64,000 bases of DNA. It comes from Methanolobus sp. (GTDB lineage: Archaea; Halobacteriota; Methanosarcinia; Methanosarcinales; Methanosarcinaceae). Each line of letters opens with the position of its first letter. The stretch's first letter is position 1. Below, in pieces: positions 1 through 13,179 of this stretch. The position numbers were made by a program, and so were the translations under genes. The stretch is taken from positions 1 to 64,000 of the forward strand of contig JARVGJ010000008.1 of the NCBI GenBank assembly GCA_029762595.1, read 5' to 3'. The notes under the pieces are model-generated. The model was not told where the DNA came from and did not search any database. It was given only the letters and a program-made list of their open reading frames with translations.

Positions 1-33
1 TTCATTAAGGGCAAAATCAGTTAAATCATCCAT
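1..33 (-). CDS. Possible N-terminal fragment of a transposase running off the left edge
   Basis: On the minus strand an ATG at 33 opens a frame that stays open to the window edge and reads MDDLTDFALNE. From memory this resembles the first residues of IS5-type transposases of Methanosarcina, which begin with a similar T-D-F-A-L motif. Only 11 residues are visible, so the assignment rests on a short match and on the neighbouring mobile-element traces. It could equally be a chance frame. Confidence 0.3.
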   Translation of the reverse strand, partial: MDDLTDFALNE

Positions 34-175
34 GATACTTAATTTATTTGCCTATTATTTATATTTTAGTGTAATGTAGTCCTAGTTTATCGAAATCCTC
101 TGAAAATACCAGAATCAGGACTCATGATAAAAATTGAAATTCAAATTGGAAAAAACCAATAAATAAATATAAATT

Positions 176-345
176 GGCTCTGTAGAAATCCTTTCTTTAT
201 TAATAAAGCACAGATGAGAATAAACAATATCTGTGTGCATCAGAGTGACCTGCTAAAGGGATGTTTAGCAGGCACTCAACTCTGTAAGAGGTGAGTGTAT
301 CTGTGGTTCACAAATTATTGATAATACCTTTTTTTCTACAGAGCC
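176..345 (+). mobile_element. MITE copy 1 (170 bp) with perfect 8-bp target duplication
   Basis: The element begins GGCTCTGTAGAAA and ends with the inverted TTTCTACAGAGCC. The 8 bases before it (168-175) and after it (346-353) are both TATAAATT, a perfect target-site duplication. Inside are three hairpins in series: CACAGAT/ATCTGTG, CCTGCTAAA/TTTAGCAGG and an imperfect CACTCAACTC/GAGGTGAGTG stem. There is also a palindromic CTTTATTAATAAAG near one end. It has no coding capacity. Two more copies lie at 3396 and 8940 in the opposite orientation. An 8-bp duplication and GGCTCTGT-type ends would suit mobilisation by an IS6-like or similar transposase, but that is inference. Confidence 0.85.
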
Positions 346-371
346 TATAAATTAGTAATTAAAATCACGGA

Positions 372-896
372 GTGGTAAATATAGCACTAACAATTTTATC
401 TGCAAGCACAATTATAGGAGATTCAGTAGAAAATCCACAAGGTGAGGATTTAGGGAATATAGAAGATATAATGATTGACCTTGATAGAGGAATAGTGGCA
501 TATACAGTAGTTTCCTTTGGAGGAGTCCTTGGAATTGCAGGTAAATACTTTGCAATACCATGGGAAGCATTAAGGAAAAAGCCAGGTGAGCATAAATTTA
601 TTGTAGATATTGATAAGAAAACATTGCTAAATGCTCCTGTATTTGACAAAAGTAAATGGCCTGGAAGTGAAGAAAAAGCTCACAGAGAACATCTCAATAT
701 GATATCTGAGCACTATGGTTATAGATCATACTGGGAAAGAATACGTGAAACTCCTGTTGAGAAAGAAAATCCCACACCAGGGACACGTATAGCAGTATTG
801 GCTGCAAGTGACATTGAAGGTAGATCCATAGAGAATCCACATGGTGAAGAATTAGGAAATATAATAAATATAATGATTGAAAGATATAATCATTAA
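372..896 (+). CDS. PRC-barrel domain protein with a truncated second repeat
   Basis: Residues 4-75 form a PRC-barrel domain of the type common in Methanosarcinales (SAS..GDSVENPQGEDLG, IEDIMIDLDRG, FGGVLGIAGKYFAIPWEAL). A charged linker follows. From about residue 137 the same pattern restarts (ASDIEGRSIENPHGEELGN) but ends at a premature TAA. PRC-barrels are small beta-barrels in photosynthetic reaction centre H subunit, RimM and many archaeal proteins of unknown role. The GTG start at 372 is canonical. However, GGAG at 369-372 is better placed for an ATA at 381, which is also where the family usually begins (M-A-x-x-L-S-A-S). The domain call is firm; function and start are not. Confidence 0.7.
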   Translation: MVNIALTILSASTIIGDSVENPQGEDLGNIEDIMIDLDRGIVAYTVVSFGGVLGIAGKYFAIPWEALRKKPGEHKFIVDIDKKTLLNAPVFDKSKWPGSEEKAHREHLNMISEHYGYRSYWERIRETPVEKENPTPGTRIAVLAASDIEGRSIENPHGEELGNIINIMIERYNH

Positions 897-1072
897 CCTT
901 GATGGAGAAATGGTGGCATATATCAGACGTTTATTGTAGATATTGATAAGGAAATACTGAAAAATGTCCTGGATTTGACAAAGATAACTGGCCAGTAAGT
1001 GAAGAAAAAGTTCACATAGAACATATAAATAGGATATCTGAGCACTATGGTTATAAACCATAGTGGGAGAAG
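783..1072 (+). pseudogene. Decayed second PRC-barrel copy
   Basis: Bases 783-1072 repeat the sequence of the first PRC-barrel unit but are broken. Near 880 a short insertion that partly duplicates the local sequence shifts the frame and brings in the stop at 896. After 925 the stretch for the core of the barrel (GIAGKYFAIPWEAL in copy 1) is deleted. From 930 the DNA again matches copy 1 (FIVDIDK, then EEKVH..EH, then ISEHYGY) but in changing frames. This is a tandem duplication in decay, not a working two-domain protein. Confidence 0.75.
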
Positions 1073-1090
1073 CTATAATCTCCCAAAAAA

Positions 1091-1122
1091 TAAAATAAAG
1101 GTAACCCAGTAACCTTATTTTA
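1091..1122 (+). terminator. Hairpin terminator candidate after the PRC remnant
   Basis: Two arms, 1091-1105 and 1109-1122, are reverse complements apart from one bulged base, around a 3-nt loop. The 3' arm is T-rich. It lies just downstream of the PRC-barrel remnant and may end its transcript. Confidence 0.4.
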
Positions 1123-1335
1123 TAGTTAATAACTCAACTTTTAGAACATATTATCCAGAAACTCAATTAAAGCAGGTCCACTTGCTTATAACTGACCTTT
1201 GAGTTGTTGAGTTTATCCAAATAGTTCCTTATCAACACTGCCATTTGAATCTCCCACCATATGCTTTATACCATATACTTTATCAGAGATTCCTGAACAT
1301 CCTCTTTTACAGACCCGAAGGACTCTAAATAGCAA
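1123..1335. other. Non-coding or decayed stretch
   Basis: No convincing gene. On the minus strand a 25-codon open stretch (about 1166-1240) reads MAVLIRNYLDKLNNSKVSY, which looks protein-like but is too short to place. It may be debris of a lost gene. Confidence 0.3.
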
Positions 1336-1668
1336 TCAGTGAGTATAATCGATTAATTGTATTGAAGCACCATTGTTCTTTTCAATTGCTGTGATCATCT
1401 GTTCAGAATGCGGGCATGCAAAGCCAGTAGGATTTCCTCGTGTTATACATGAAGCAAGAACTATTGTGTCAGCTCCGCGCCTGACCATTTCAGCAGCCCT
1501 CTGAACCGCTTTTTTGCCGGGACAACCGCCACATGAAACAACACCGATCACTTCAATTTCATCCTCAACATCCTCGAATGCAAATTTTTTTTCCTTCATT
1601 ACTTTAAAATCTGTTGTTGCAGGACATATGTCCTCTGTTTGCATACATCTTATCAGTCCTACTTTCAT
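1336..1668 (-). CDS. CGGC domain-containing protein
   Basis: This 110-residue protein is a full-length member of the CGGC family of putative metal-binding proteins found in archaea and anaerobic bacteria. The name motif SCGGCPGKKA is at residues 45-54. Other cysteines are at 8, 15, 74 and 85, with LASCI and the ending IDYTH also typical of the family. The substrate is unknown; binding of a metal or Fe-S centre is inferred from the cysteines. Its ATG overlaps the stop of a small upstream frame (TAATG), suggesting translational coupling. It is the first gene downstream of the methionine-rich/ArsR operon, on the same strand but about 340 bases away. Confidence 0.85.
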   Translation of the reverse strand: MKVGLIRCMQTEDICPATTDFKVMKEKKFAFEDVEDEIEVIGVVSCGGCPGKKAVQRAAEMVRRGADTIVLASCITRGNPTGFACPHSEQMITAIEKNNGASIQLIDYTH

Positions 1669-1778
1669 TACTCTGCCTCCCTGATATCTCCAAATATGCT
1701 TTCTGCAGGCAGAACTGAAATATCCTTCATACTCAGTTCTTTATCCCTGAACTTACAAACACCACCTACGTGATACAT
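1668..1778 (-). CDS. Small 36-codon frame coupled to the CGGC gene; possible remnant
   Basis: A frame from ATG at 1778 ends in TAA overlapping the ATG of the CGGC gene. Its product begins MYHVGGVCKFRDKE and ends FGDIREAE, with a composition like a real protein C-terminus. A GGAG sits about 23 nt upstream, too far for an ordinary start, so this may be the tail of a truncated gene rather than a complete small protein. I do not recognise the family. Confidence 0.3.
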   Translation of the reverse strand: MYHVGGVCKFRDKELSMKDISVLPAESIFGDIREAE

Positions 1779-2008
1779 GCAAATGCAAAGCAGATATTAG
1801 TTCTCCTTCAATAAAGAATTGCCTATTCAAATCGAATATTCAGCATCTTCCACAAAAACCGATGTTGAGTTATTCATTATATCCTCTTCACATGATCTTA
1901 CAGAAAGATGGACACTGTACCATATATAATGCTCCTGGAAGATGCAGGGAAAAACTTTCCCATCACATCATCTGTTTTCGATAGCAAAAAGAGGATCTAT
2001 AAGGGTCA
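1779..2008. other. Intergenic stretch with possible gene debris
   Basis: No complete gene. On the plus strand, about 1811-1927, an open stretch without a start codon reads DVELFIISSSHDLTERW before a TAA, which looks like the C-terminal end of a former protein. Together with the adjacent short frame this suggests past gene loss between the CGGC gene and the methionine-rich operon. Confidence 0.3.
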
Positions 2009-2470
2009 TTATCTTACTTTTTCCATGACACTGGAAACAAAAGCTGTCCTCTCATCTTCAGACATGCCTTGAGAACCTTTTTCCACAAGTACCTCCACCA
2101 TTTTCAGGACGAACTCTGTTCTTTCTTCTGCGGGAACGTTGGGAAGCATGATATTCAGGCAATTGGGCATCATTTCCATCATCATATTGGGCATCATTGA
2201 CATGCCTGCGCCTTCATTGGCTTGCATCATCTTTGACATCATTCCCTCTTCTCCCATCATCATCTTTGGCATCATTTCCATCATATTGACCCCCTCCATC
2301 ATTTTAGGCATCATATTTTCCATCATATTTTCTTTATCTTCTTTTGTCATGTCTGCAAAAAAATTCCCCATCATTTTATCCATCATCTCTTCTTTTTCTT
2401 CTTTGCTCATTCTTCCCATCATGAATTCCATCATTTTTTCCATCATGTTCATTTGCTCCCCCTCAGACAT
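2009..2470 (-). CDS. Methionine-rich small protein, last gene of an ArsR operon
   Basis: Of 153 residues, 43 are methionine, mostly as MM pairs spaced by acidic or lysine residues (EKMMEFMMGRM, DKMMGNFF, MPKMMMGEEGMM). There is one cysteine, near residue 104, and no histidine or tryptophan. The last 45 residues are ordinary (VPAEERTEFVLKMVEVL) and look helical. There is no signal peptide or membrane segment. Known Met-motif proteins bind Cu(I) or Ag(I) by thioether sulfur, so soft-metal binding or an oxidation sink is possible; that is inference. It lies 41 bases after a second Met-rich gene and downstream of an ArsR repressor on the same strand. I recognise no characterised family. Confidence 0.75.
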   Translation of the reverse strand: MSEGEQMNMMEKMMEFMMGRMSKEEKEEMMDKMMGNFFADMTKEDKENMMENMMPKMMEGVNMMEMMPKMMMGEEGMMSKMMQANEGAGMSMMPNMMMEMMPNCLNIMLPNVPAEERTEFVLKMVEVLVEKGSQGMSEDERTAFVSSVMEKVR

Positions 2471-2511
2471 ATTTACTGTTTGCCGATATACTGTTTTAAA
2501 ATATTCAAAAA

Positions 2512-2826
2512 TTACAGATTCCCTGAACTTCTTCCTTTACTACCCGATCTTGAAATCAGGAAATTTACACTTTCTTCAGATAGATTTAGTTTTTGTGCAA
2601 TCTCTTTGGTATCATTCGTTTCTTTCCTGATTTCGACCAGATCTTCATTGACCTGATCAAGCCATTCTTCAAACAGCTTTTTCAATTCAGGTGTTCCGTA
2701 TGTTGCCATATCCGAATCATCTTTTGCAAACCCCATCATATTTTGCTGTATCTGCATGCATTTCTTCATCATCGCTGGCATCATATCGGATGCCATCATT
2801 TCCATTGGTGTCCCCTTATTTTTCAT
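2512..2826 (-). CDS. Small protein with Met-rich N-terminus and helix-turn-helix-like C-terminus
   Basis: The first 40 of 104 residues carry 11 methionines (MEMMASDMMPAMMKKCMQ) and one cysteine. The middle is a charged helical stretch (LKKLFEEWLDQVNEDLVEI). Residues about 72-95 (DTKEIAQKLNLSEESVNFLI) resemble a short helix-turn-helix. It starts 28 bases after the arsR-like gene and precedes the longer Met-rich protein, so the three genes probably form one transcript. The role is unknown; a metal-responsive partner or adaptor is a guess based on context. Confidence 0.7.
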   Translation of the reverse strand: MKNKGTPMEMMASDMMPAMMKKCMQIQQNMMGFAKDDSDMATYGTPELKKLFEEWLDQVNEDLVEIRKETNDTKEIAQKLNLSEESVNFLISRSGSKGRSSGNL

Positions 2827-2854
2827 TTTAGTTCCTCCCTTTGAATGAATTCAT

Positions 2855-3244
2855 CTACTTTTGAACAAAGCAAACTGGAAAATGTTTGAAAAAACTATTC
2901 TCATCTTCAAATGGAATATCCTCAGATAACTGTGTTATTTCCTCACCCAGAATTTTAGTACCGTTAATCATTTCGATGATCTTTGGTGTTACAAGAGCAT
3001 GATAAACAAACGCCTTTTTTCTGCAAGAAACCACCAACCCTGCATTTTTCAATATTTTAAGGTGATGTGACACCAGAGGCTGTGATATATCAAGCTGTGC
3101 AGCAATTTCATTGACTGGTTTTGCACCGTTTACCAATACTTGTAATATTGCTAATCTGTTCTCATCTGATAGCACTTTAAAGACCGATGCATGTTTTCTG
3201 AAACTTCTAACCTTGGTTTTTTCTGCACTTATCTTTATCACCAA
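2855..3244 (-). CDS. ArsR-family winged-helix repressor
   Basis: This 129-residue protein has the ArsR/SmtB fold throughout: SVFKVLSDENRLAILQVLV (20-38), the recognition region DISQPLVSHHLKILKNAGLV (52-71) and the beta-wing (CRKKAFVYHAL, 74-84). Cysteines at 74 and 125 are the only ones. The classic alpha-3 ELCVCDL metal site is replaced by KPVNEIAAQL, so the inducer cannot be read from known sites. It is the first gene of a three-gene operon with two methionine-rich proteins. A 20-bp palindrome overlapping its TATA-like box points to autoregulation. Confidence 0.88.
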   Translation of the reverse strand: MVIKISAEKTKVRSFRKHASVFKVLSDENRLAILQVLVNGAKPVNEIAAQLDISQPLVSHHLKILKNAGLVVSCRKKAFVYHALVTPKIIEMINGTKILGEEITQLSEDIPFEDENSFFKHFPVCFVQK

Positions 3245-3245
3245 T

Positions 3246-3298
3246 ATATGCTTAGGTATTAACCATATAAATGCTTGTTTATATCTACATATGTTTAG
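3246..3298 (-). promoter_or_regulatory. Promoter and probable operator of the ArsR/Met-rich operon
   Basis: A perfect palindrome, ATATAAA-TGCTTG-TTTATAT, lies at 3265-3284, 21 bases upstream of the ArsR start at 3244. Read on the minus strand its left arm overlaps TTTATATGG, a good archaeal TATA box, so a bound repressor would block TBP. A direct repeat ATATGYTTAG flanks it at 3246-3255 and 3289-3298. Three ATGYTT boxes are thus spaced by 23 and 20 bp. ArsR/SmtB operators are typically AT-rich inverted repeats of this size. Confidence 0.6.
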
Positions 3299-3395
3299 AT
3301 GATAGCTTTGCCAGAAGAAAGGCCCGAAGGCAATACAACATCAAACTATTTCTTCAAATGTGTTGAATTATATATATGTGCATATTTATAAAAAC

Positions 3396-3568
3396 GGCTC
3401 TGCAGAAAATATATTATCAATAATTTGTATCAATAATTGTGAACCACAGATACACTCACCTCTTACAGAGTTGAGTGCCTGCTAAAAATCCGTTTAGCAG
3501 GTCACGCTGATGCACGCAGATATTTTTCATCTGCGGTTTATTAATAAAGAAAGGATTTCAACAGAGCC
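3396..3568 (-). mobile_element. MITE copy 2 (173 bp), inverted relative to copy 1
   Basis: The element runs from GGCTCTGCAGAAA to TTTCAACAGAGCC and matches the reverse complement of the 176-345 element along its length. It contains the same CACTCACCTC/GAGTTGAGTG and CCTGCTAAA/TTTAGCAGG hairpins and the TTTATTAATAAAG palindrome. The 8 bases on either side (ATAAAAAC and TGATCTAT) do not match, so the insertion is old or its flank has been rearranged. Copies 1 and 2 bracket the PRC, CGGC and Met-rich genes. The rest of the gap between genes (3299-3395 and 3569-3738) holds only a 12-bp tandem repeat, ACATCTCACTAT, at 3663-3686. Confidence 0.8.
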
Positions 3569-3738
3569 TGATCTATTTAGATATATAACGGCGTTAACTA
3601 TAGCAGAGGTGTGCATCCTTTTACAAAAAGCGCCCACTTCCCCCCAACACAGTCAAAAACACACATCTCACTATACATCTCACTATAATTCATTCCCGCA
3701 ACTACCGGACAGATAAAAGCTTAAGCAATCGGATGCAA

Positions 3739-4371
3739 TCATTTTCCACATCCTTTTTCCATGATCTTAAGCACCTCAGAATCGGAAACATCGTACCAGT
3801 TCATATAGACCTGGGCAACTGCCCTGAAATTTGCAGGGGTTTCCAGCACCACGATCTCATCGGCCATGTCACCTATGTCCCTGGCAACCTCCCTGCCAGC
3901 CACCGGTACAGCAACCACTATCCTTGCAGCACCCTTGCTCCTGCACAGCATTATCGATGCCCGCATTGTGGAACCCATGGCAAGGCCGTCATCTACAAGT
4001 ATGACCGTGCGGCCGGCGATCTCGGGCAATGGTCTGCCTGCCCTGAGGACCTCTATCCTTCTTCGGACCTCCGCTGTCTGCTCACTTACTATCCGGTCTA
4101 TCTGCTCCTGTGACAGCCACATTGCTGCTTCCTTGAAAATAAACACGCTGCCATCCTCAGCAACTGCCCCGAATCCCGCCTCATGGTTGTCGGGAAATGG
4201 CAGCTTCCTTGTCACCAGGAGTGAAAAAGGAACCTGAAGATATTCTGCAACCTTGCATCCCACTTCCACACCGCCCCTGGGTATGGCCAGCACCAGTACA
4301 GCCCTGCCTTTGTACTTTAGCAGCTCACGGGCAAGTCTTTCACCTGCATCACTTCTGTCCCTGAAAAGCAT
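3739..4371 (-). CDS. Phosphoribosyltransferase family protein
   Basis: This 210-residue type I PRTase-fold protein carries the PRPP-binding loop VILVDDGLAMGSTM at residues 123-136. The N-terminus has AIPRGGVEVGCKVAEYL (29-45), typical of the free-standing PRTases of the COG1926 group. The substrate base is not evident; members are often annotated only as putative phosphoribosyltransferases. It stands alone, divergently placed from the MoxR gene, with AT-rich DNA on both sides. Confidence 0.85.
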   Translation of the reverse strand: MLFRDRSDAGERLARELLKYKGRAVLVLAIPRGGVEVGCKVAEYLQVPFSLLVTRKLPFPDNHEAGFGAVAEDGSVFIFKEAAMWLSQEQIDRIVSEQTAEVRRRIEVLRAGRPLPEIAGRTVILVDDGLAMGSTMRASIMLCRSKGAARIVVAVPVAGREVARDIGDMADEIVVLETPANFRAVAQVYMNWYDVSDSEVLKIMEKGCGK

Positions 4372-4486
4372 AATGTCACTCCCCGATCAATGATATTTCA
4401 TCGCTCACTGAAATAGTTTTACGCTAAAGATATAATTAAAGAGATAGAGAGATTGATAGAGAGATAGCCTTTCTCCTGCACAGCAC

Positions 4487-4532
4487 ATTTAAACCAGAAA
4501 AGGCTAGATACTAGCATAAAAGGAGGATTGCT
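4487..4532 (+). promoter_or_regulatory. TATA-like box and Shine-Dalgarno of the MoxR/VWA pair
   Basis: ATTTAAA at 4487-4493 is a plausible archaeal TATA element. A strong AGGAGG at 4521-4526 lies 6 bases before the ATG at 4533. Further upstream, 4436-4467 is built of repeated GATAGAGA units. Confidence 0.5.
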
Positions 4533-5363
4533 ATGGCAACGAAATGTGCTTTATCCCAGGAGCTGCCGGTTGATGAGTACCTTATAAAGGAAGAACCTTA
4601 CTACGTACCCGTGGGCAACGAGGTGGAAATATTCATAGCCGCTTACAGGAACATGCTGCCTGTAAATCTGAAAGGTCCCACTGGTTGTGGAAAAACACGG
4701 TTCATGGAGTACATGGCATATAAATTACAACGTCCGTTGATAACCATCGCCTGCCATGAGGACCTTACCGCCACAGACCTTGTGGGGCGTTTTCTCATTA
4801 AAGGTGAAAGTGTGGAGTGGAGTGACGGGCCTCTCACAAAAGCCGTGAAATGCGGGGCTATCTGCTATCTCGATGAAGTGGTGGAGGCCAGGAAGGACAC
4901 CATAGTTGTCATCCATCCGCTGACCGATGACAGGCGCATAATCCCCATTGACAAGCTGGGAGTTATCGTCAAGGCTCCCCCGGAGTTCATGCTGGCAGTC
5001 TCCTACAACCCAGGGTACCAGAGCATTGTCAAGGACATGAAACAGAGCACAAGACAGCGTTTTGTTGCCATTGACTTTGACTATCCGCCGGCAAATCTTG
5101 AAAAGCAGATAGTGTCCCATGAAAGCCGTATAGATGAGGATACCGCAGGCCTGCTTGTGCAGATCGGGCAGAGTATCAGGAACTTCAAGCACCATGGCCT
5201 TGAAGAAGGGGTCAGCACACGCCTGTTGATATATGCAGGCAAGCTCATTCGCGAAGGCATAGAGGCAAAAGAGGCCTGCAGGATAGCCATGGCAAAACCC
5301 ATAACTGACAACCAGGACCTGCAGAAGAGCATTGATGAGATAATCGCCGCCATAATGGAGTGA
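4533..5363 (+). CDS. MoxR-type AAA+ ATPase (NorQ/CbbQ-like)
   Basis: This 276-residue protein has Walker A GPTGCGKT at 48-55 and Walker B AICYLDEV at 109-116. The body is the compact MoxR/NorQ/CbbQ AAA+ domain with its RQRF sensor region ([14 protein letters not shown]). Such ATPases act as chaperones with a VWA-domain partner to remodel or metallate target enzymes. The partner follows directly downstream in the same reading frame. The target of the pair is not evident here; none of the classical targets (Nor, RubisCO) is next to it. Confidence 0.9.
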
Positions 5364-5480
5364 ATCAACACGCAGGCAGACAAGCAAAGCAAAAAGGATG
5401 CTGCCGCGGAAAAGACCATCGGGCTTATATCCTCCCGTTTTCCGGGACTGGACAGTTATGTCAGCAAAAAGGATATAGCT

Positions 5481-8400
5481 TTGATGGCGGCAGGGTTTGA
5501 AGAGCTAAGTGAGCAAGAACAGGAGGAAGTGCTTCGTGCAGGGAAAGGAGCACTTAAGCGCGGCACCCGGGTACTCATAGCCTACCTCCGGGCTGCCCCA
5601 AAGGTCTGCAAAGCCATTGGAAAAGAGGACTTTGCCAGCTGGCTTGCCCTTGCAAGAAGAATATCAAAGCTTAGTGTCTCATGCTGTGAAGGTTTCTTTG
5701 AATCATCGCTCCCGATAATTAAAAAAGGAGGGCTTGCACTCCTTGGGTACTGGACAGACACAGGCATAGCCCTCTCAGAGCATAGCAAATGGGTTTCAAT
5801 AGCCTACTTCAGACACACAGGCAAAGTGATAGTATCCACCGGCCCTGAAAGATTTAAAGGAATTGCTGCAAGGGGAACAGAACTTACAGACATCAATACA
5901 AAAGTATCAGAAGCATATTTTGAACATCTTATCCATTTCCACACCCTTCTGACACCGCAGAATTTTAATCTATTCTGCAATATCGCTCAAAGTCTGAGCA
6001 AAGAGCACTGGCTCATTTCCATAGAATTCATAAGCCTTGCAGGTAAGACACTTAGATCCATCCCTGAAAAAAGAAGAGCAGAGATGCTCCAGGCAATGTA
6101 CAGCCTCCTGGACCTGGGGGAAGGGCCTTCAATGGCATTGTACAGGAACGCAGGAGCTATCATTGGACACGCCGATGAGCAAAGCTTTGCAGCACTCATG
6201 CGTTTTGCAACCGATCTTGCAAGGCATGACAGGAAAAGTTCGATGCATTTACTGAACAGCATTGCACAGTACATGGATAAACTTGAGCTAAGTGAGGCAG
6301 AACAATGGAAGAACAAAGCCCTGGACTCATTACAGGACAACAGGGAAGCACTGCGGACCTTCATTCAGACAAGCCTCATACTGGGAAAGAACACCGGGGA
6401 TACGGACAGGAAAAGCCGGTCTGCTATCATAGAAAGAGGCATCATGCTGGCAGAGATCGAGCCAAAGTGCCTTGAAAACTATTTCAGCAATGCAGCGCTG
6501 GCCTATAAACTTTTCACTGCAGACATTTACGAGGAATGGGTCGGCACAGGAGAAGGTATTGCCATGCAGGACCCAGGGCTTGCAGCGGCCTACTATGAGA
6601 GATCGCTCCTGGCCATGAGGGATATATCACCACAGCATCATGAACAGATATTCAGGACCGCAAATGTGCTCCTTGGAAAGGATGCGACCCTTACCAGCCT
6701 GTTCTTCGGGAACCTGGGATCCTTCATCCGCCAGGCGAAAATAGAAAATGCCACCCGATGGGCAGAGATCGGGATAAGGCTCCATGAAATGGACAGGAGA
6801 CTTGCTGGAGATTATTTTACACACTCTGTGCAGCTGCTGGGAAAACTGGACGTGGATGAGCTTGAACAGTGGGCACTTAAAGGCCTGGAACTAAGTAAAA
6901 ACAAACCAAGCAAAAGCAAAGGATCTTCAGGCGGACCTCCAGGGGAGTCATCAGGCGGATCTGCAGGAGAGGCTTATTTCAGTCTTGTATCAAAGACATC
7001 AACTGATCTTGCAGAGGAACTCAGCGGCTCCTTAGAACTCAAAAAAGTGACTAACGTGCTCAGATACTATGCACTGGGCCTCTGCGGCACAAATTTTGTC
7101 ATACGCTCCATGACATCACTGCCGCTTCTTGAGGACACACACGGGGTCAATCCCATTATCGCAGGCAATACCATATATCTTGCCCCAAAGATGAGACTAT
7201 ACCAGAGCATTGAGGATAATTTCAGGATATACAAGTTAAGCGTGATGCATGAAGTAGGACATGTCAGGTTCAGTTCACTTGATATAGAACCTGTTAAGGC
7301 TGGCACACTTGTGGACAGGATCAGCAGGGAGTACAACGCAGCGGACCATCAACGGAACACAGACCCGCATGATCCGGAAATTGATATTGATATGGACATC
7401 GCAGATATACTCTCACTTTTTCCAAATCAGATACTTGCTGCAACTATATTTGGAATCCTTGAGGATGCACGGGTGGAGTATATGATAATGGAGCATTACA
7501 GGGGAGTACGTTACGACCTTGAAGAGATAAGGCATCGAATGCTCCTGTCAAGGCCAGGACCTTCCGCAGGTCTTGAGGAATTCATGGAAGCGTTACTGTG
7601 GGCATCTACAGGGCATAAAGTGCAATTCGATACTGATGAGCTTACCAGGAAGGTCCTGGAAGATGTGCGCAAGATCCTGGAAGAGAATATATTCATCAAG
7701 GATTCCACAACTACATCCTGCCTTGAAGGGACCTTTGAGATATATTCCAAAATGGAAGAACACTTTGGCCCTCTTGGGCAGATAGAATATCAGATGCTGA
7801 GAAACATAGCCTACCGTGGCATGGATATCGGTGCATCGGGAAGCAAAGACCCTGTCATGACCAGGCCCTCCGAGGACATCATAAGGAATTTCATGCCTGA
7901 GACAGAAGCCGACCTCACAGCACAGGAGGAAAGGCCAAAGGAGCAGGCTACCAATAAACCCACACAAGCCCTGAACAAGAACTGGAGCTTGCTTGGGACT
8001 TACAGATACGATGAGTGGGACAGTTCCATTAATGACTACAGGACAGAATGGAGCACTATCAATGAAATAGAACCTTCCGGTGGTTCCACATCCTACTACA
8101 ACAAAGCCATGGAGCGCTACAGCAATGAGATCGCACTCCTGAAACATACATTCAGCATGATGAGACCAGAGGCGTTCCACCGCCTGAAAGAGCAGAAGGA
8201 TGGTACAGAGATAGATATTGATGCCTTCACAGAATCACTTATCGCAAAGAGGTGCGGTATCAATCCCGATGAGAGGCTGTACATAAGGTGGGACAAGCAC
8301 GAAAGGGATGTGGCAACCCTCTTCCTGATAGATGTCAGCGCCTCAACACGGAAGATACTGGGTAATGATGGAAGGAGTATCCTGGAAGTCGAAAAGGATG

Positions 8401-8900
8401 CGCTGATTATTATGAGCCAGGCACTTGAAAGCATTGGGGACAAGTATGCCATATATGCATTCTCCGGTAAAGGCCGCGAGAATATAGAGTATTTTTTGAT
8501 AAAGGGATTTGATGAAGAACTATCCGATGAGGTGGCATGCAGAATGAGCCTCCTTCAGCCTGCCTCCAATACACGCCTGGGACCTGCCATACGTCACTCT
8601 GTCAGTAAACTGGAACAGGCCCAGGCAAATACAAAGATGCTTGTGCTGCTTTCAGACGGTGAGCCATATGACAGGTCAAAGGGAGAAGGCACCTACCAGG
8701 GTGATCTTGCACAGGAGGACACCAGGGTAGCCATAAATGAAGCAAAGAACCGTGGGATACACTTTTTCTGCATCACCGTGGACAAAAACCCGGGGGATTA
8801 CCTTGACAAGATCTTTTCTGACGTTGGATACACAATAATAGATGATGCCCTGATGCTGCCGGAAACACTTCCGCTGTTATACAAGAGGCTGACAATGTAG
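5481..8900 (+). CDS. Giant VWA-domain protein (NorD/CbbO-like) with an HExxH motif
   Basis: The product is 1139 residues from a TTG at 5481 (AAGGAT at 5470-5475), with an ATG at 5484 as alternative. Residues 1-480 are helical repeats. A Gly/Ser-rich linker follows near 475-495. The NorD-type middle region contains MHEVGHVRFSS (HEVGH at 590-594), and the C-terminal VWA domain starts near 945 with the MIDAS motif DVSAS (951-955). It pairs with the MoxR ATPase upstream. The frame stays open back to the TGA of that gene at 5361 and reads like coding sequence (SSRFPGLDSYVSKKDIALM), so the true start may be upstream at a non-standard codon. The VWA role with MoxR is established for the family; proteolysis by HEVGH is not. 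Confidence 0.88.
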   Translation: MMAAGFEELSEQEQEEVLRAGKGALKRGTRVLIAYLRAAPKVCKAIGKEDFASWLALARRISKLSVSCCEGFFESSLPIIKKGGLALLGYWTDTGIALSEHSKWVSIAYFRHTGKVIVSTGPERFKGIAARGTELTDINTKVSEAYFEHLIHFHTLLTPQNFNLFCNIAQSLSKEHWLISIEFISLAGKTLRSIPEKRRAEMLQAMYSLLDLGEGPSMALYRNAGAIIGHADEQSFAALMRFATDLARHDRKSSMHLLNSIAQYMDKLELSEAEQWKNKALDSLQDNREALRTFIQTSLILGKNTGDTDRKSRSAIIERGIMLAEIEPKCLENYFSNAALAYKLFTADIYEEWVGTGEGIAMQDPGLAAAYYERSLLAMRDISPQHHEQIFRTANVLLGKDATLTSLFFGNLGSFIRQAKIENATRWAEIGIRLHEMDRRLAGDYFTHSVQLLGKLDVDELEQWALKGLELSKNKPSKSKGSSGGPPGESSGGSAGEAYFSLVSKTSTDLAEELSGSLELKKVTNVLRYYALGLCGTNFVIRSMTSLPLLEDTHGVNPIIAGNTIYLAPKMRLYQSIEDNFRIYKLSVMHEVGHVRFSSLDIEPVKAGTLVDRISREYNAADHQRNTDPHDPEIDIDMDIADILSLFPNQILAATIFGILEDARVEYMIMEHYRGVRYDLEEIRHRMLLSRPGPSAGLEEFMEALLWASTGHKVQFDTDELTRKVLEDVRKILEENIFIKDSTTTSCLEGTFEIYSKMEEHFGPLGQIEYQMLRNIAYRGMDIGASGSKDPVMTRPSEDIIRNFMPETEADLTAQEERPKEQATNKPTQALNKNWSLLGTYRYDEWDSSINDYRTEWSTINEIEPSGGSTSYYNKAMERYSNEIALLKHTFSMMRPEAFHRLKEQKDGTEIDIDAFTESLIAKRCGINPDERLYIRWDKHERDVATLFLIDVSASTRKILGNDGRSILEVEKDALIIMSQALESIGDKYAIYAFSGKGRENIEYFLIKGFDEELSDEVACRMSLLQPASNTRLGPAIRHSVSKLEQAQANTKMLVLLSDGEPYDRSKGEGTYQGDLAQEDTRVAINEAKNRGIHFFCITVDKNPGDYLDKIFSDVGYTIIDDALMLPETLPLLYKRLTM

Positions 8901-8939
8901 GGTCATATGCCCCATTTATTTATAAAATAGTTTAAATTC

Positions 8940-9088
8940 AGCTCTGTGGAAAAACTATAATCAATAATTTGTATCAATAATTTGTGAACCGCGGATACAC
9001 TCAACTCCGTAGGAGGTGAATGTATCCGTGTTCATCTGTTCTTTATTAATAAAGAAAGGATTTCTACAGAGCCGATTTCTACAGAGAC
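8940..9088 (-). mobile_element. MITE copy 3, shortened
   Basis: From AGCTCTGTGGAAA at 8940 to TTTCTACAGAGCC at 9073 this matches copies 1 and 2 but lacks the CCTGCTAAA hairpin. Its centre folds into one longer hairpin (GGATACA...TGTATCC). A partial repeat of the right end (GATTTCTACAGAGAC) follows to 9088. If the true end is 9088, the flanks TTAAATTC and TTAAATTA agree at 7 of 8 positions, a decayed target duplication. It separates the VWA gene from the next small gene. Confidence 0.75.
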
Positions 9089-9189
9089 TTAAATTATTTT
9101 TATATCATATTTCGGAAAACTTATTCCCGCCTGCATAGGAAACAATGTGATAAGAAAACATTAAATCGTTTCCTGCCAAATCTGAATAG

Positions 9190-9564
9190 ATGAATATGGA
9201 AGATGAAATGAATAAAACAAAGGATGCAAAAGAAGTGAAAGGTTTCCAGCCAAGGGCTGTGGCCTATGCAAAAAAGATAGATGTGGATTTTTCGCAGGCT
9301 GTTGCAGGTTTCTACAGTGCTGTATGGGATGAGAAGGAAAACGGGCTTTCCAAAAAGAACAAACATTTACTTGTATTTGCAATTGCCTGCTCTAACCAGA
9401 AAACAAAGAGTGCCGTCAAGATACTCCAGAGACTGAAAAAGTTTGGTGCAAGCTCACAGGAGGTAAAGGATGCCATGATGATAGCAGCCTGGACCGGTGG
9501 GATCCAGAATTTTACTAATTTCACACCTGCGATACTGGAAGAAATGGAAAGGCTGGATTTCTAA
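9190..9564 (+). CDS. Carboxymuconolactone decarboxylase (AhpD-like) family protein without the usual CxxC
   Basis: The 124-residue product has the all-helical CMD fold pattern: YAKKIDVDFSQAVAGFYSAVWD, LSKKNKHLLVFAIACS and GASSQEVKDAMMIAAWTGG. Active members have C-x2-C-x3-H after the AIA stretch; here that region reads ACSNQKTKSA, with only one cysteine. The peroxidase-type redox centre is therefore missing and another role is likely. An internal ATG at 9208 is an alternative start. Confidence 0.75.
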   Translation: MNMEDEMNKTKDAKEVKGFQPRAVAYAKKIDVDFSQAVAGFYSAVWDEKENGLSKKNKHLLVFAIACSNQKTKSAVKILQRLKKFGASSQEVKDAMMIAAWTGGIQNFTNFTPAILEEMERLDF

Positions 9565-9569
9565 GAGCA

Positions 9570-9857
9570 TCAGACCAGCGCAAAGAGCGGAAGTAAAAAC
9601 CTGATAAAGATATATAACTGTAGCAACAGGATCATAGGCATACCGATCTTAAAGGACGGATGCCTTGTCTTGTGGCGGAAAACATACATACCTGCTATAG
9701 CACCGGGAGTACCCCCGGCTATAGCGCTTGTGAAAAGTGTTCTTTCTGATATCCTGAACTTTTTCTTTTTTGCCTTCCTTTTATCCAGACCCATCAGGTA
9801 AAATGCCACTATGTTTACCAGCATCAAATACATAAAAAATATAAAGGTTGTATCCAT
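9570..9857 (-). CDS. DUF1294 membrane protein
   Basis: This 95-residue protein has two or three membrane segments (FMYLMLVNIVAFYLMGLDKRKA, then ISERTLFTSAIAGGTPGAIAGM, then ILLLQLYIFIRFLL). The DKRKAK motif after the first segment and GG.PGA..GM.VFRHKTRH.SF are the signature of DUF1294. The function is unknown. It converges with the CMD-family gene, 5 bases apart. Confidence 0.88.
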   Translation of the reverse strand: MDTTFIFFMYLMLVNIVAFYLMGLDKRKAKKKKFRISERTLFTSAIAGGTPGAIAGMYVFRHKTRHPSFKIGMPMILLLQLYIFIRFLLPLFALV

Positions 9858-10002
9858 AGCTCTTATTTGACTATATTATCTATAAATATATCCCGGAGAA
9901 ACCCTTTTATTGTAAAATAAAGGTCCATCCGGAAAAGAGATCCCAGATCAGCGACAATCCAAAAAAAAAGGACACAGATAAAAGTATAAAAGGGTGGTAG
10001 AT

Positions 10003-10416
10003 ATGAATAAAAAATGGCTTATATTGATAACAATAGTGATGCTTGCCGGGGTGCTTGCCAGCGGCTGTGCGGACAATGCAGAAGATAATGACATTGGTCC
10101 TGAAACAGACACAGCAGATGATCAGATAGTGGAATATGAAGAAATGCCAATCGTTGAGGGCACGCCTTTTGGTGTGAGGATGGAGTACTACGGGAAAATG
10201 ATACCGTCAGAAATTGAAATAGACAGAGGGGATTCCATTGTCTGGAGAAACCAAAAGCCACAGAACAGTTATGTGCTTGTGAGTGATGACGGCTTATTTG
10301 AAGACAAAGAAATGTATGCTCACGATACACATACCCACACATTCACAAAAAGCGGCACCTATACGTTCAGTGTAAGGGACTTACCGGAAATGACACTGAC
10401 TGTTAATGTCAGGTGA
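10003..10416 (+). CDS. Lipoprotein with a cupredoxin-like domain
   Basis: The ATG at 10003 is preferred over the GTG at 9994 because GGTGG lies just before it. The product has 137 residues. A signal sequence leads to the lipobox LASGC with lipidation cysteine 22, followed by an acidic linker. Residues 50-137 look like a cupredoxin beta-sandwich (EIEIDRGDSIVWRN, then TFTKSGTYTFSVRD). The normal Cys copper ligand is absent, but HDTHTHTF offers three histidines. It is probably anchored outside the membrane; metal binding is uncertain. Confidence 0.75.
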   Translation: MNKKWLILITIVMLAGVLASGCADNAEDNDIGPETDTADDQIVEYEEMPIVEGTPFGVRMEYYGKMIPSEIEIDRGDSIVWRNQKPQNSYVLVSDDGLFEDKEMYAHDTHTHTFTKSGTYTFSVRDLPEMTLTVNVR

Positions 10417-10489
10417 TCTTGAGGCTTCATGCCTCACATCATTTCCATTGAACCATATTTGACCCATATTTAGGGCAATTGATCCTCTT

Positions 10490-10888
10490 TTAATCCTCTT
10501 TTTTAAAATCAAGAGATATGGAGTTTATACAGAATCTCTGACCGGTGGGAGCAGGACCGTCATCAAAAACATGACCAAGGTGACTTCCACACCTGCTGCA
10601 TAGCACTTCGGTCCTTTCCATGAAGTGACTGTTATCGGGTTTGAGATCTACACTCTCCTCTGATATAGGTTTAAAGAAACTGGGCCATCCTGTCCCTGAA
10701 TCGAATTTTGCATCCGAAGCGAATAGTTCCTGACCGCACGCTGCGCACAGGTAAATACCTTTTCCCTTATTTGCGTAATACTTCCCTGTAAAAGGCGCTT
10801 CAGTACCCTTTTGGCGCAGCACTATGAACTGGTCCCTGCTTAGAGTTTCTTTCCACTGATCATCGCTTTTATTAATAGTATCTTCCAC
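10490..10888 (-). CDS. msrB: Peptide methionine-(R)-S-oxide reductase MsrB
   Basis: This 132-residue enzyme reduces the R-epimer of methionine sulfoxide in proteins. The zinc site is complete (C48, C51, C97, C100), the substrate motif SGTGWPSF is at 64-71, and the catalytic cysteine is C120 in QRFCIN. No msrA is visible nearby. The start is the ATG at 10888. Confidence 0.96.
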
Positions 10889-11172
10889 TTTGAACCCTCC
10901 ATAGCAAGTAAGACTATTAGCTTAAATAGATAACGTGATAATGCAGAGATCCACATACACATGTTCTTCTAAATGATACATATAAAGCCAAAAAAAGCCA
11001 AAATACTTCCTGAATATCATAAAGAAGGTAAATAAATACTACAGACAAAGTAAATAGATATTGCATATTAATCTGAATTATATTCCCTTTTTGAGAAAAT
11101 TAATATCATCAAACTGACATATACTTAAAAGGGAAGATTTGGATAATCCGTATAAATCAAAGGGGAGATAGC

Positions 11173-11502
11173 ATGTCGGATTGGATCACATACTATGAAG
11201 ACAACAGGCAAAGTGCATTGAGCAGAATAAAGAATATGTCCCTTTCTGCAAGGTATCGCAGGGAACTGAATTGCTGGGTCAACAAGTATCTGGACCCTTT
11301 CTCGGTTGCAAGGACCATATCTGTTGAAAGATACGAGTGTCCGGATCCATTTTCAAGGATACGTCTTGAAGCTGAAAATGACCTGGAGTTCACCTTGCTT
11401 ACCGCAACAGGCAAGGACAGGAATAATAATGATATGATCTTCTTTGAAAGTAACCTTTTGCTTCTGTTCAACCTTATGCTCAGGCACATCAGGATATCAT
11501 AG
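11173..11502 (+). CDS. Conserved-looking hypothetical protein, 109 residues
   Basis: The ATG at 11173 is preceded by GGGGAG 7 bases upstream, so the gene is likely real. The product has two cysteines (CWVNKYL, YECPDPF) and ends in a hydrophobic helix (NLLLLFNLMLRHI). There is no signal peptide and I recognise no family. The 280 bases upstream are AT-rich with no other feature that I can support. Confidence 0.6.
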   Translation: MSDWITYYEDNRQSALSRIKNMSLSARYRRELNCWVNKYLDPFSVARTISVERYECPDPFSRIRLEAENDLEFTLLTATGKDRNNNDMIFFESNLLLLFNLMLRHIRIS

Positions 11503-11631
11503 AAAAAAAGGCAATAACTCACAGAGAACAAAAACGTACACATGCGCTGATATCAGGATGAGCATAATGTAGCCATGCCTCTAAGAAGAATATACAATGC
11601 ATTTAAAAACATTCGGGACAATTCATAACCC

Positions 11632-13179
11632 ATGTCATATGAGAACGGACCACTGTTATTGATGATACTTGATGGCTGGGGATATAGTACTGAAAAGCAG
11701 GGCAATGCCATCATGGCTGCAAATACCCCGGTACTTGACTCTTTGCTTAAGAAATATCCCTCATGCTTTCTGGAAGTATCCGGAGAAGGAGTGGGACTAC
11801 CCCGGGGCCAGATGGGTAACTCTGAGGTAGGTCATCTGAATATCGGTTCCGGCAGGATAATTTACCAGGACCTGACACGTATTAACAGGGATATATACAA
11901 TGGTTCCTTTTTTGAGAACTCCGCCTTAATTGAGGCCATGGGACATGTAAAGGAGAAGGGGTCCTCACTGCATCTTATGGGTTTGTTCTCATACGGTGGT
12001 GTGCACAGCCACATGGACCATATGAGAGCGCTTGTTGAAATGGCAAAAAGAAAGAACATCGATGAGGTCTATATCCATGCATTCCTGGACGGGAGGGATG
12101 TTCCTCCCAGGGCCTCCCTTGATGATATGATAGGACATGAGGATTTCTGCAGGAACACAGGAATTGCAAAGACTGCAACTGTCTGTGGAAGGTATTATGC
12201 AATGGACCGGGACAGGCGCTGGGACCGCACTAAAATGGCATATGATGCACTCACACTTGGCCAAGGCATCCTTGCCTCAGATGCTGTTTCAGCCATAAGT
12301 ATGGCTTATGAGCGAGGCGAGAATGACGAATTCGTAAAGCCAACTGTCATAACAGACGCCGGTGGCAAACCTGTGGCAACAGTAAAGGATGGAGATTCGG
12401 TCATCTTTTTCAATTTCCGTCCTGACAGGGCACGACAGCTGACATACGCTTTTGTGAATGATGATTTTGATGGTTTTGGGAGAAAGGTAAAACCAGGCGT
12501 TCACTACGTCTGCATGGCAGAATACGATGAAAAACTGCATGTTCCAATAGCATTCCCACCGGAGACCATCACCAATACTCTGGGAGAAGTCCTGAGCAAG
12601 AATCACAAGAAGCAGCTCCGCATAGCTGAGACAGAAAAGTATGCTCATGTGACATTCTTCTTCAACGGTGGTGTGGAAAAGGAGAATGAAGGAGAGGACA
12701 GGTGCCTTATACCGTCACCTGATGTAGCCACTTATGACATGAAACCAGAGATGAGCGCGTACGAGGTTACAGACCAGCTAGTTGAGAGAATAGGTTCCGG
12801 CAACTATGATGTTATAATACTCAATTTTGCAAATATGGACATGGTAGGGCACACCGGAATTATCGATGCAACGATAAAAGCTATTGAGGCCGTGGATGAG
12901 TGCGTAGGGAAGATAACAAAGACCATTATTAGAAAAGGCGGAACTGCAATCATAACCGCAGACCATGGAAATGCCGAGAAGATGATAGACTACATAACAG
13001 GCAAGCCACATACTGCACACACATCCAATCCTGTAAGATGCATTCTTGTAAACGCAGATGAAGGGACAACATTAAGGGATGGAAAACTCTCGGATATCGC
13101 TCCTACAATGCTGGAAATACTTGGGATTGAGAAACCGGAACAGATGACAGGAACCTCGCTTATTGAAAAGGACATTTAG
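11632..13179 (+). CDS. gpmI: 2,3-bisphosphoglycerate-independent phosphoglycerate mutase
   Basis: This 515-residue protein is the alkaline-phosphatase-type iPGM that interconverts 3- and 2-phosphoglycerate. The metal ligand D14 sits in MILDGWGYS, and the phosphoserine nucleophile S64 in [18 protein letters not shown] and ADHGNAEKM complete the two-metal site. The length matches bacterial-type GpmI rather than the shorter archaeal ApgM. A TATA-like TTTAAAAA lies about 30 bases upstream, so the mRNA is probably nearly leaderless. Confidence 0.97.

Follow-up and report, generated by a model that had tools for sequence, protein, structure and literature searches.

A possible role in soft-metal or arsenic handling, by proteins of a type little described so far, for an arsR-linked pair of small archaeal genes

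The locus at positions 2009-3298 of the window, by which we mean the whole analysed stretch of 64,000 nucleotides, raises the question of what an ArsR-type repressor might control together with two small methionine-containing proteins. All three genes lie on the minus strand and were taken from the list of open reading frames: arsR (2855-3244, 129 amino acids), a gene for a 104-residue protein (P0002, 2512-2826) and one for a 153-residue protein (P0001, 2009-2470). This layout, as given in a preliminary description of the DNA, is confirmed by the coordinates, with 28 bases between arsR and P0002 and 41 bases between P0002 and P0001. Compared with its homologue in the genome G053, each of the three genes has a larger synonymous (dS) than non-synonymous distance (dN) (dN/dS values of 0.10/0.70 for P0001, 0.096/0.48 for ArsR and 0.15/0.33 for P0002), and we therefore regard the reading frames as real genes and not as chance occurrences. 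The order arsR-P0002-P0001 is conserved: it was found again in two related archaea, G053 and G049, the latter copy being truncated by the end of its contig. The DNA comes from a methanogenic archaeon, and both of these close operon carriers are Methanosarcinaceae genomes assembled from metagenomes. As a family search found P0002-type genes in four genomes of the same genus (G000, G044, G049 and G053), the cassette is accessory.

None of the three operon genes codes for an efflux pump, a reductase or a methyltransferase, and arsA, arsB, arsC, arsD and arsM are absent from the three-gene operon. Neither the surroundings of the window operon nor the part of the G053 locus that was read contain an ars gene. 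Downstream of P0001, after a gap of 340 bases, follows a gene for a CGGC-domain protein on the same strand (1336-1668, minus; PF08821, 105 bits), which is a possible but unproven fourth member of the operon; no such gene stands beside the G053 copy. A search of positions 1-12000 of the window against Rfam gave no matches.

A composition count of P0001 bears out the numbers reported earlier: 43 of its 153 residues are methionine (28%), there is one cysteine (in MMPNC), and histidine and tryptophan are absent; the methionines form 16 non-overlapping MM pairs. The protein probably starts at Met7 (about 2452), giving 147 amino acids, since a GGGGGAG lies just ahead of this ATG and the homologues have their starts at the same place. 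Relatives of P0001 occur in Desulfobacterota and Ignavibacteriales, and a search of the phylum of the Ignavibacteriales genome returned none beyond the starting genome. Eleven methionine positions are retained in nearly all relatives, and the single cysteine (MPxC) is kept in every relative that reaches this region. In one relative 15 of the 42 aligned methionine columns carry Ile, Leu, Val, Phe or Ala, and replacements of this kind are seen in L029 and L087. The pattern of eleven kept and 15 of 42 exchanged columns thus allows both thioether ligation and a methionine-lined hydrophobic surface. The structure model of P0001 is all-helical and of low confidence (mean pLDDT 65), and a PDB sequence search gave nothing below an E-value of 0.1. 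Two longer methionine-rich relatives were also observed (L088:1-600 and L087:5955-6473, with 199 and 173 amino acids).

P0002 contains 12 methionines among 104 residues, all of them within the first approximately 40, and a single cysteine (C23). Hence its N-terminus alone is rich in methionine, and the description of two extremely methionine-rich proteins holds for P0001 and has to be narrowed for P0002. The C-terminal half of P0002 matches the TsoA profile NF045695 over positions 70-140 with an E-value of 8.2e-10 and 39.2 bits (cut-off 170), and its bacterial relative L064 matches the same profile with 2.2e-17. Judged from these profile matches, the predicted C-terminal helix-turn-helix of P0002 is homologous to the C-terminal domain of TsoA. 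This is in agreement with the AlphaFold2 model, which has a helical C-terminal domain (pLDDT of about 91 over residues 51-90) and an N-terminus of low confidence. In a PDB profile search P0002 resembled generic helix-turn-helix folds only, and a fold search returned no match with an E-value below 0.001. The selenocysteine motif LULAXC is absent from P0002. Relatives with a methionine-rich N-terminus are present in Desulfobacterota; none were found in a search of the phylum of the Ignavibacteriales genome, nor in the searched genomes of the P0001 relatives L023 and L024. Among the carriers found, both proteins occur together only in archaea, and searches of plasmid and viral-contig collections gave relatives of neither. 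Matches to P0002 near an E-value of 0.001 in G336, G362 and G002 turned out on reading to be other proteins. Homology between the methionine-rich parts of P0001 and P0002 was considered as well, and profile comparison did not support it (17.7% probability).

A hint towards the chemistry of P0002 arises from its cysteine, which is located 28 residues before the leucine of LFEEW. Cysteine with this spacing (-28) is also found in G053, G044, G704, G521 and G1015, and the G783 relative has a cysteine at the same column with a deletion of three residues. At four loci in three genomes the C23 column is occupied by an in-frame TGA, namely L066:4883-5239 and L089:4803-5159 (both G737), L090:3736-4092 (G695) and L085:5214-5552 (G1029), each time 28 residues before LF(E/D)EW or VFEEW (the spacings of -28 and -24 given here were counted by hand on the sequences). 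Starting 25 nucleotides past the UGA, all four have a stem of 8 bp with a three-nucleotide loop (GUA or GUC), and these hairpins agree with the bSECIS model as quoted in PMC13188914. A comparable hairpin is absent from the cysteine forms L064, L083 and L084 and from the window. In shuffled sequences an 8-bp stem arises somewhere in the stretch in 1-4% of cases per sequence, and as three of the four TGA sequences are near-identical, the hairpins count as two independent ones. We regard the four loci, which lie near arsR, as a candidate for an undescribed bacterial selenoprotein family, and predict that the key residue of the P0002 family is cysteine in archaea and some bacteria and selenocysteine in other bacteria. 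G737 and G695 additionally carry a TsoA with TGA that scores above the cut-off, and in G737 the methyltransferase gene adjoining the TGA-bearing P0002 relative also reads through a TGA. The protein of G747 (L067) has its cysteine at -24 and not at -28. Two short TsoA-like proteins of G1028 (L075 and L076) are weakly similar, not rich in methionine and have a TGA at the -24 column; one of them lies beside arsC-type, methyltransferase and DGC genes.

The identity of the first gene as ArsR is upheld by scores above the cut-off for both Pfam HTH_5 (2.3e-15; 56.6 bits, cut-off 22) and NCBIfam HTH_metalloreg (81.3 bits, cut-off 55), and the score against TsoR (NF045707) stays below its cut-off (79.4 of 115 bits). 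The gene begins with TTG at 3244. In an alignment the window ArsR lacks the alpha-3 cysteine cluster of the ELCVCDLC type and has NGAKPVNEIAAQL at that place; the ArsR of G044 has ELCVCEIC there. The window protein ends in HFPVCFVQK, and the alignment gives FPVCFVQ as the archaeal tail; in the bacterial partner ArsRs the common tail is PPM-x-FM, with WM or WI after it in most cases.

The interval described earlier extends beyond the arsR start up to 3298, and this remainder holds a putative operator and promoter. The palindrome ATATAAACAAGCATTTATAT (3265-3284, minus strand) is located 40 nt before the start of arsR and overlaps TTTATAT, from which we infer a TATA-like element. Of 13 arsR upstream regions, archaeal as well as bacterial, 11 have a perfect copy of the pattern ATATNAN8TNATAT at a distance of 34-40 nt from the start codon; the shuffle control, with one mismatch allowed, reached a mean of 0.36 and a maximum of 3. 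Under a stricter form of the pattern 3265-3284 is the sole exact match in the 64 kb. The pattern is missing upstream of the G044 arsR and of the one TsoR examined, and in many TsoA loci the retrieved sequence matches it at another place.

The gene neighbourhoods of the relatives provide a lead to a cargo. Each of the 13 clear P0002-type loci has an arsR gene on its upstream side and in the same orientation, either adjacent or with one gene in between (that of L067 was read from the translation of the upstream stretch). In G044 the order is arsR-DUF169-P0002-arsD-arsA, with ArsD and ArsA above their cut-offs, and both G737 copies are arranged as arsR-VTT-P0002(U)-SHOCT followed by a selenoprotein of the arsenite methyltransferase type. 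The genes after P0002 in G704, G521 and G1015 come from a set of XdhC, DUF169, AhpD-like and DGC genes rather than from arsAB, and near the G704 locus there is an ArsP-type permease. The P0001 relative of the Ignavibacteriales (L024) directly follows arsD-arsA, with FmdB, UspA and ArsB genes further on; a DUF2703 gene is found near L033, and no evident metal genes stand beside L023, L032, L087 and L088.

From the gene order, the operator conservation, the exchange of Cys and UGA with SECIS-like hairpins and the ars-gene neighbours, the best explanation in our judgement, to which we would give about an even chance, is an autoregulated, ArsR-repressed operon responding to soft metals or metalloids, with Cys or Sec and Met serving as ligands. 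ArsR would occupy the palindrome that covers its promoter until a thiophilic metal(loid) or a related signal displaces it. P0002 could then bind the ion via its conserved cysteine (selenocysteine in some bacteria) and nearby methionine thioethers, its helix-turn-helix being a docking part for DNA or protein, and P0001, which has one conserved cysteine, might serve as a thioether/thiol buffer of high capacity. The model goes beyond the observations in what it proposes about the ligand, its binding, the repression by ArsR and the roles of the two proteins. Because of the ars-gene neighbourhoods, arsenic (arsenite or methylated arsenicals) appears to be the likeliest class of cargo, followed by Cu(I), Ag(I) or Hg(II). 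Several observations weigh against the explanation: the window ArsR is without the classical As(III) motif, ars genes are missing beside the window operon and in the part of G053 that was read, G704, G521 and G1015 have XdhC, DUF169 and DGC genes in place of arsAB, P0001 and P0002 were seen together in archaea only, and the exchanged methionine columns of one P0001 relative suit a hydrophobic surface equally well. Of the two functions originally suggested, a soft-metal buffer or an oxidant sink, the former receives indirect support from the ars neighbours of relatives and from the alignment of the P0002 cysteine with UGA. The helix-turn-helix domain, the operator, the predicted Sec forms and the arsenic neighbourhoods go beyond that preliminary description. 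The wider proposal, which falls a little short of an even chance, is that P0002 founds an undescribed ArsR-controlled, methionine-rich family distinct from TsoA and that it would form, together with the likewise undescribed P0001 family, a thioether and thiol/selenol system by which anaerobes transport or keep a soft metal(loid) in their cytoplasm.

A buffer specifically for Cu(I) or Ag(I), i.e. a cytosolic counterpart of the methionine-rich periplasmic copper proteins, would suit the methionine-rich composition. Two neighbours are compatible with it: the nearest metal gene to the G053 operon, about 1.2 kb beyond P0001, codes for a Cu-type P-type ATPase (L013:3234-5258; 626 bits, above cut-off), and in G783 a heavy-metal P-type ATPase gene follows that of P0002 behind a PadR gene. 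Most loci, however, are without an adjacent copper gene, the arsenic neighbours are stronger and repeated, and P0001 and P0002 match no copper-protein family in Pfam or NCBIfam, so that we regard this reading as unlikely. The N-terminus of the G053 ATPase is itself rich in Met and His. The methionines could alternatively line helices that present a flexible hydrophobic surface to hydrophobic segments, similar to the SRP54 M domain, in which case the operon would encode a small set of chaperones or assembly factors. The methionine columns that are Ile, Leu, Val, Phe or Ala in L029 and L087 (15 of 42 in one relative) suit such a surface as well as they do metal ligands, and the all-helical model of P0001, although of low confidence, fits it. 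The eleven retained methionines and the conserved cysteine of P0001 argue in the other direction, as do the ArsR-type control and the ars neighbours, which point to metals; we consider it quite improbable.

Slightly more doubtful still is that P0002 represents a second DNA-binding regulator, a thiol or selenol sensor working with ArsR and leaving P0001 as sole effector. Its C-terminal helix-turn-helix and its strict linkage to arsR would be explained in this way, but helix-turn-helix folds also mediate protein contacts, and a regulatory role for the related TsoA proteins is not known. The lowest probability, and a very small one, we assign to an oxidant sink of the MrpX kind, in which methionines take up the oxidant and a methionine sulfoxide reductase regenerates them. 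The very high methionine content of P0001 and the MsrB reported at 10490, which is confirmed as SelR (10490-10888, 176 bits), are in its favor, and methionine-rich proteins linked to hypochlorous acid stress have been described (PMC8315932, PMC9751292). This MsrB gene is more than 7 kb distant, though, and the examined neighbourhoods of relatives had no recognisable msr gene; we reject the oxidant sink for this lack of linked msr genes. Its fit with a Cys/Sec-bearing partner and arsenic neighbours is poor, and the methionine-rich proteins have no signal peptide.

The statement that no system of this layout has been described proved only partly right, as P0002 and its ArsR resemble the TsoA/TsoR pair (NF045695, NF045707) of the three-selenoprotein (Tso) operon listed in PMC13188914. 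An ArsR gene adjoins that of TsoA (L068), the C-terminal helix-turn-helix is common to both, TsoA shares the cysteine at -24 with some P0002 relatives, and many TsoA loci match the same operator pattern. In contrast to TsoA with its N-terminal LULAXC part, P0002 has a methionine-rich N-terminus, its Cys/Sec is at -28 and not at the LULAXC selenocysteine, it reaches 39 of 170 bits, and no tsoB or tsoC lies beside it. With ars operons (arsR-arsD-arsA-arsB/acr3) the locus shares the ArsR control, and relatives of both proteins are found within or next to arsDA or genes of the arsM type; the missing ars genes and the ArsR without ELCVCDLC set it apart. We claim membership in neither system, since the features that define them were examined and are not found here. 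Methionine-rich copper proteins comprise CusF, PcoC/CopC, CopK and segments of Ctr1. The window proteins share with them a high methionine content, a property that suits Cu(I)/Ag(I), and differ in lacking a signal peptide and any sequence match and in having MM pairs on predicted helices, not MxxM/MxM repeats. MrpX, described as a periplasmic protein with a dedicated Msr, is likewise small and very rich in methionine; the window proteins show neither of these two traits.

Taken in this context, the locus suggests a type of protein for handling soft metals or arsenic that has received little description. If the proposal is true, extreme methionine richness, Cys/Sec exchange and ArsR control would be joined in one system of archaea and bacteria, as a cytosolic counter-case to the periplasmic methionine-rich copper proteins. 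The uncharacterised TsoA-like domain would gain a testable setting in soft-metal or arsenic handling, and a new candidate selenoprotein family would have archaeal members that use cysteine.

A further aspect concerns the mobility of the cassette. From 2306 to approximately 3918 the window is 96-100% identical in most 100-base blocks to G049, which belongs to another species, with two blocks at 91% and 94%. Outside this tract identity is mostly 60-90%, and for PRTase and MoxR, the neighbouring genes, it amounts to 84% and 81%. Given this difference between the tract and its diverged neighbours, we infer that the tract was most likely transferred recently, with the recombination taking place in the flank. 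In a repeat search a pair of inverted MITE-like elements was found at 176-346 (plus strand) and 3395-3568 (minus strand), flanking a 3.2-kb region with the operon. Within positions 372-1065 of the window a PRC-barrel gene is followed by an apparent decayed partial copy of the same gene.
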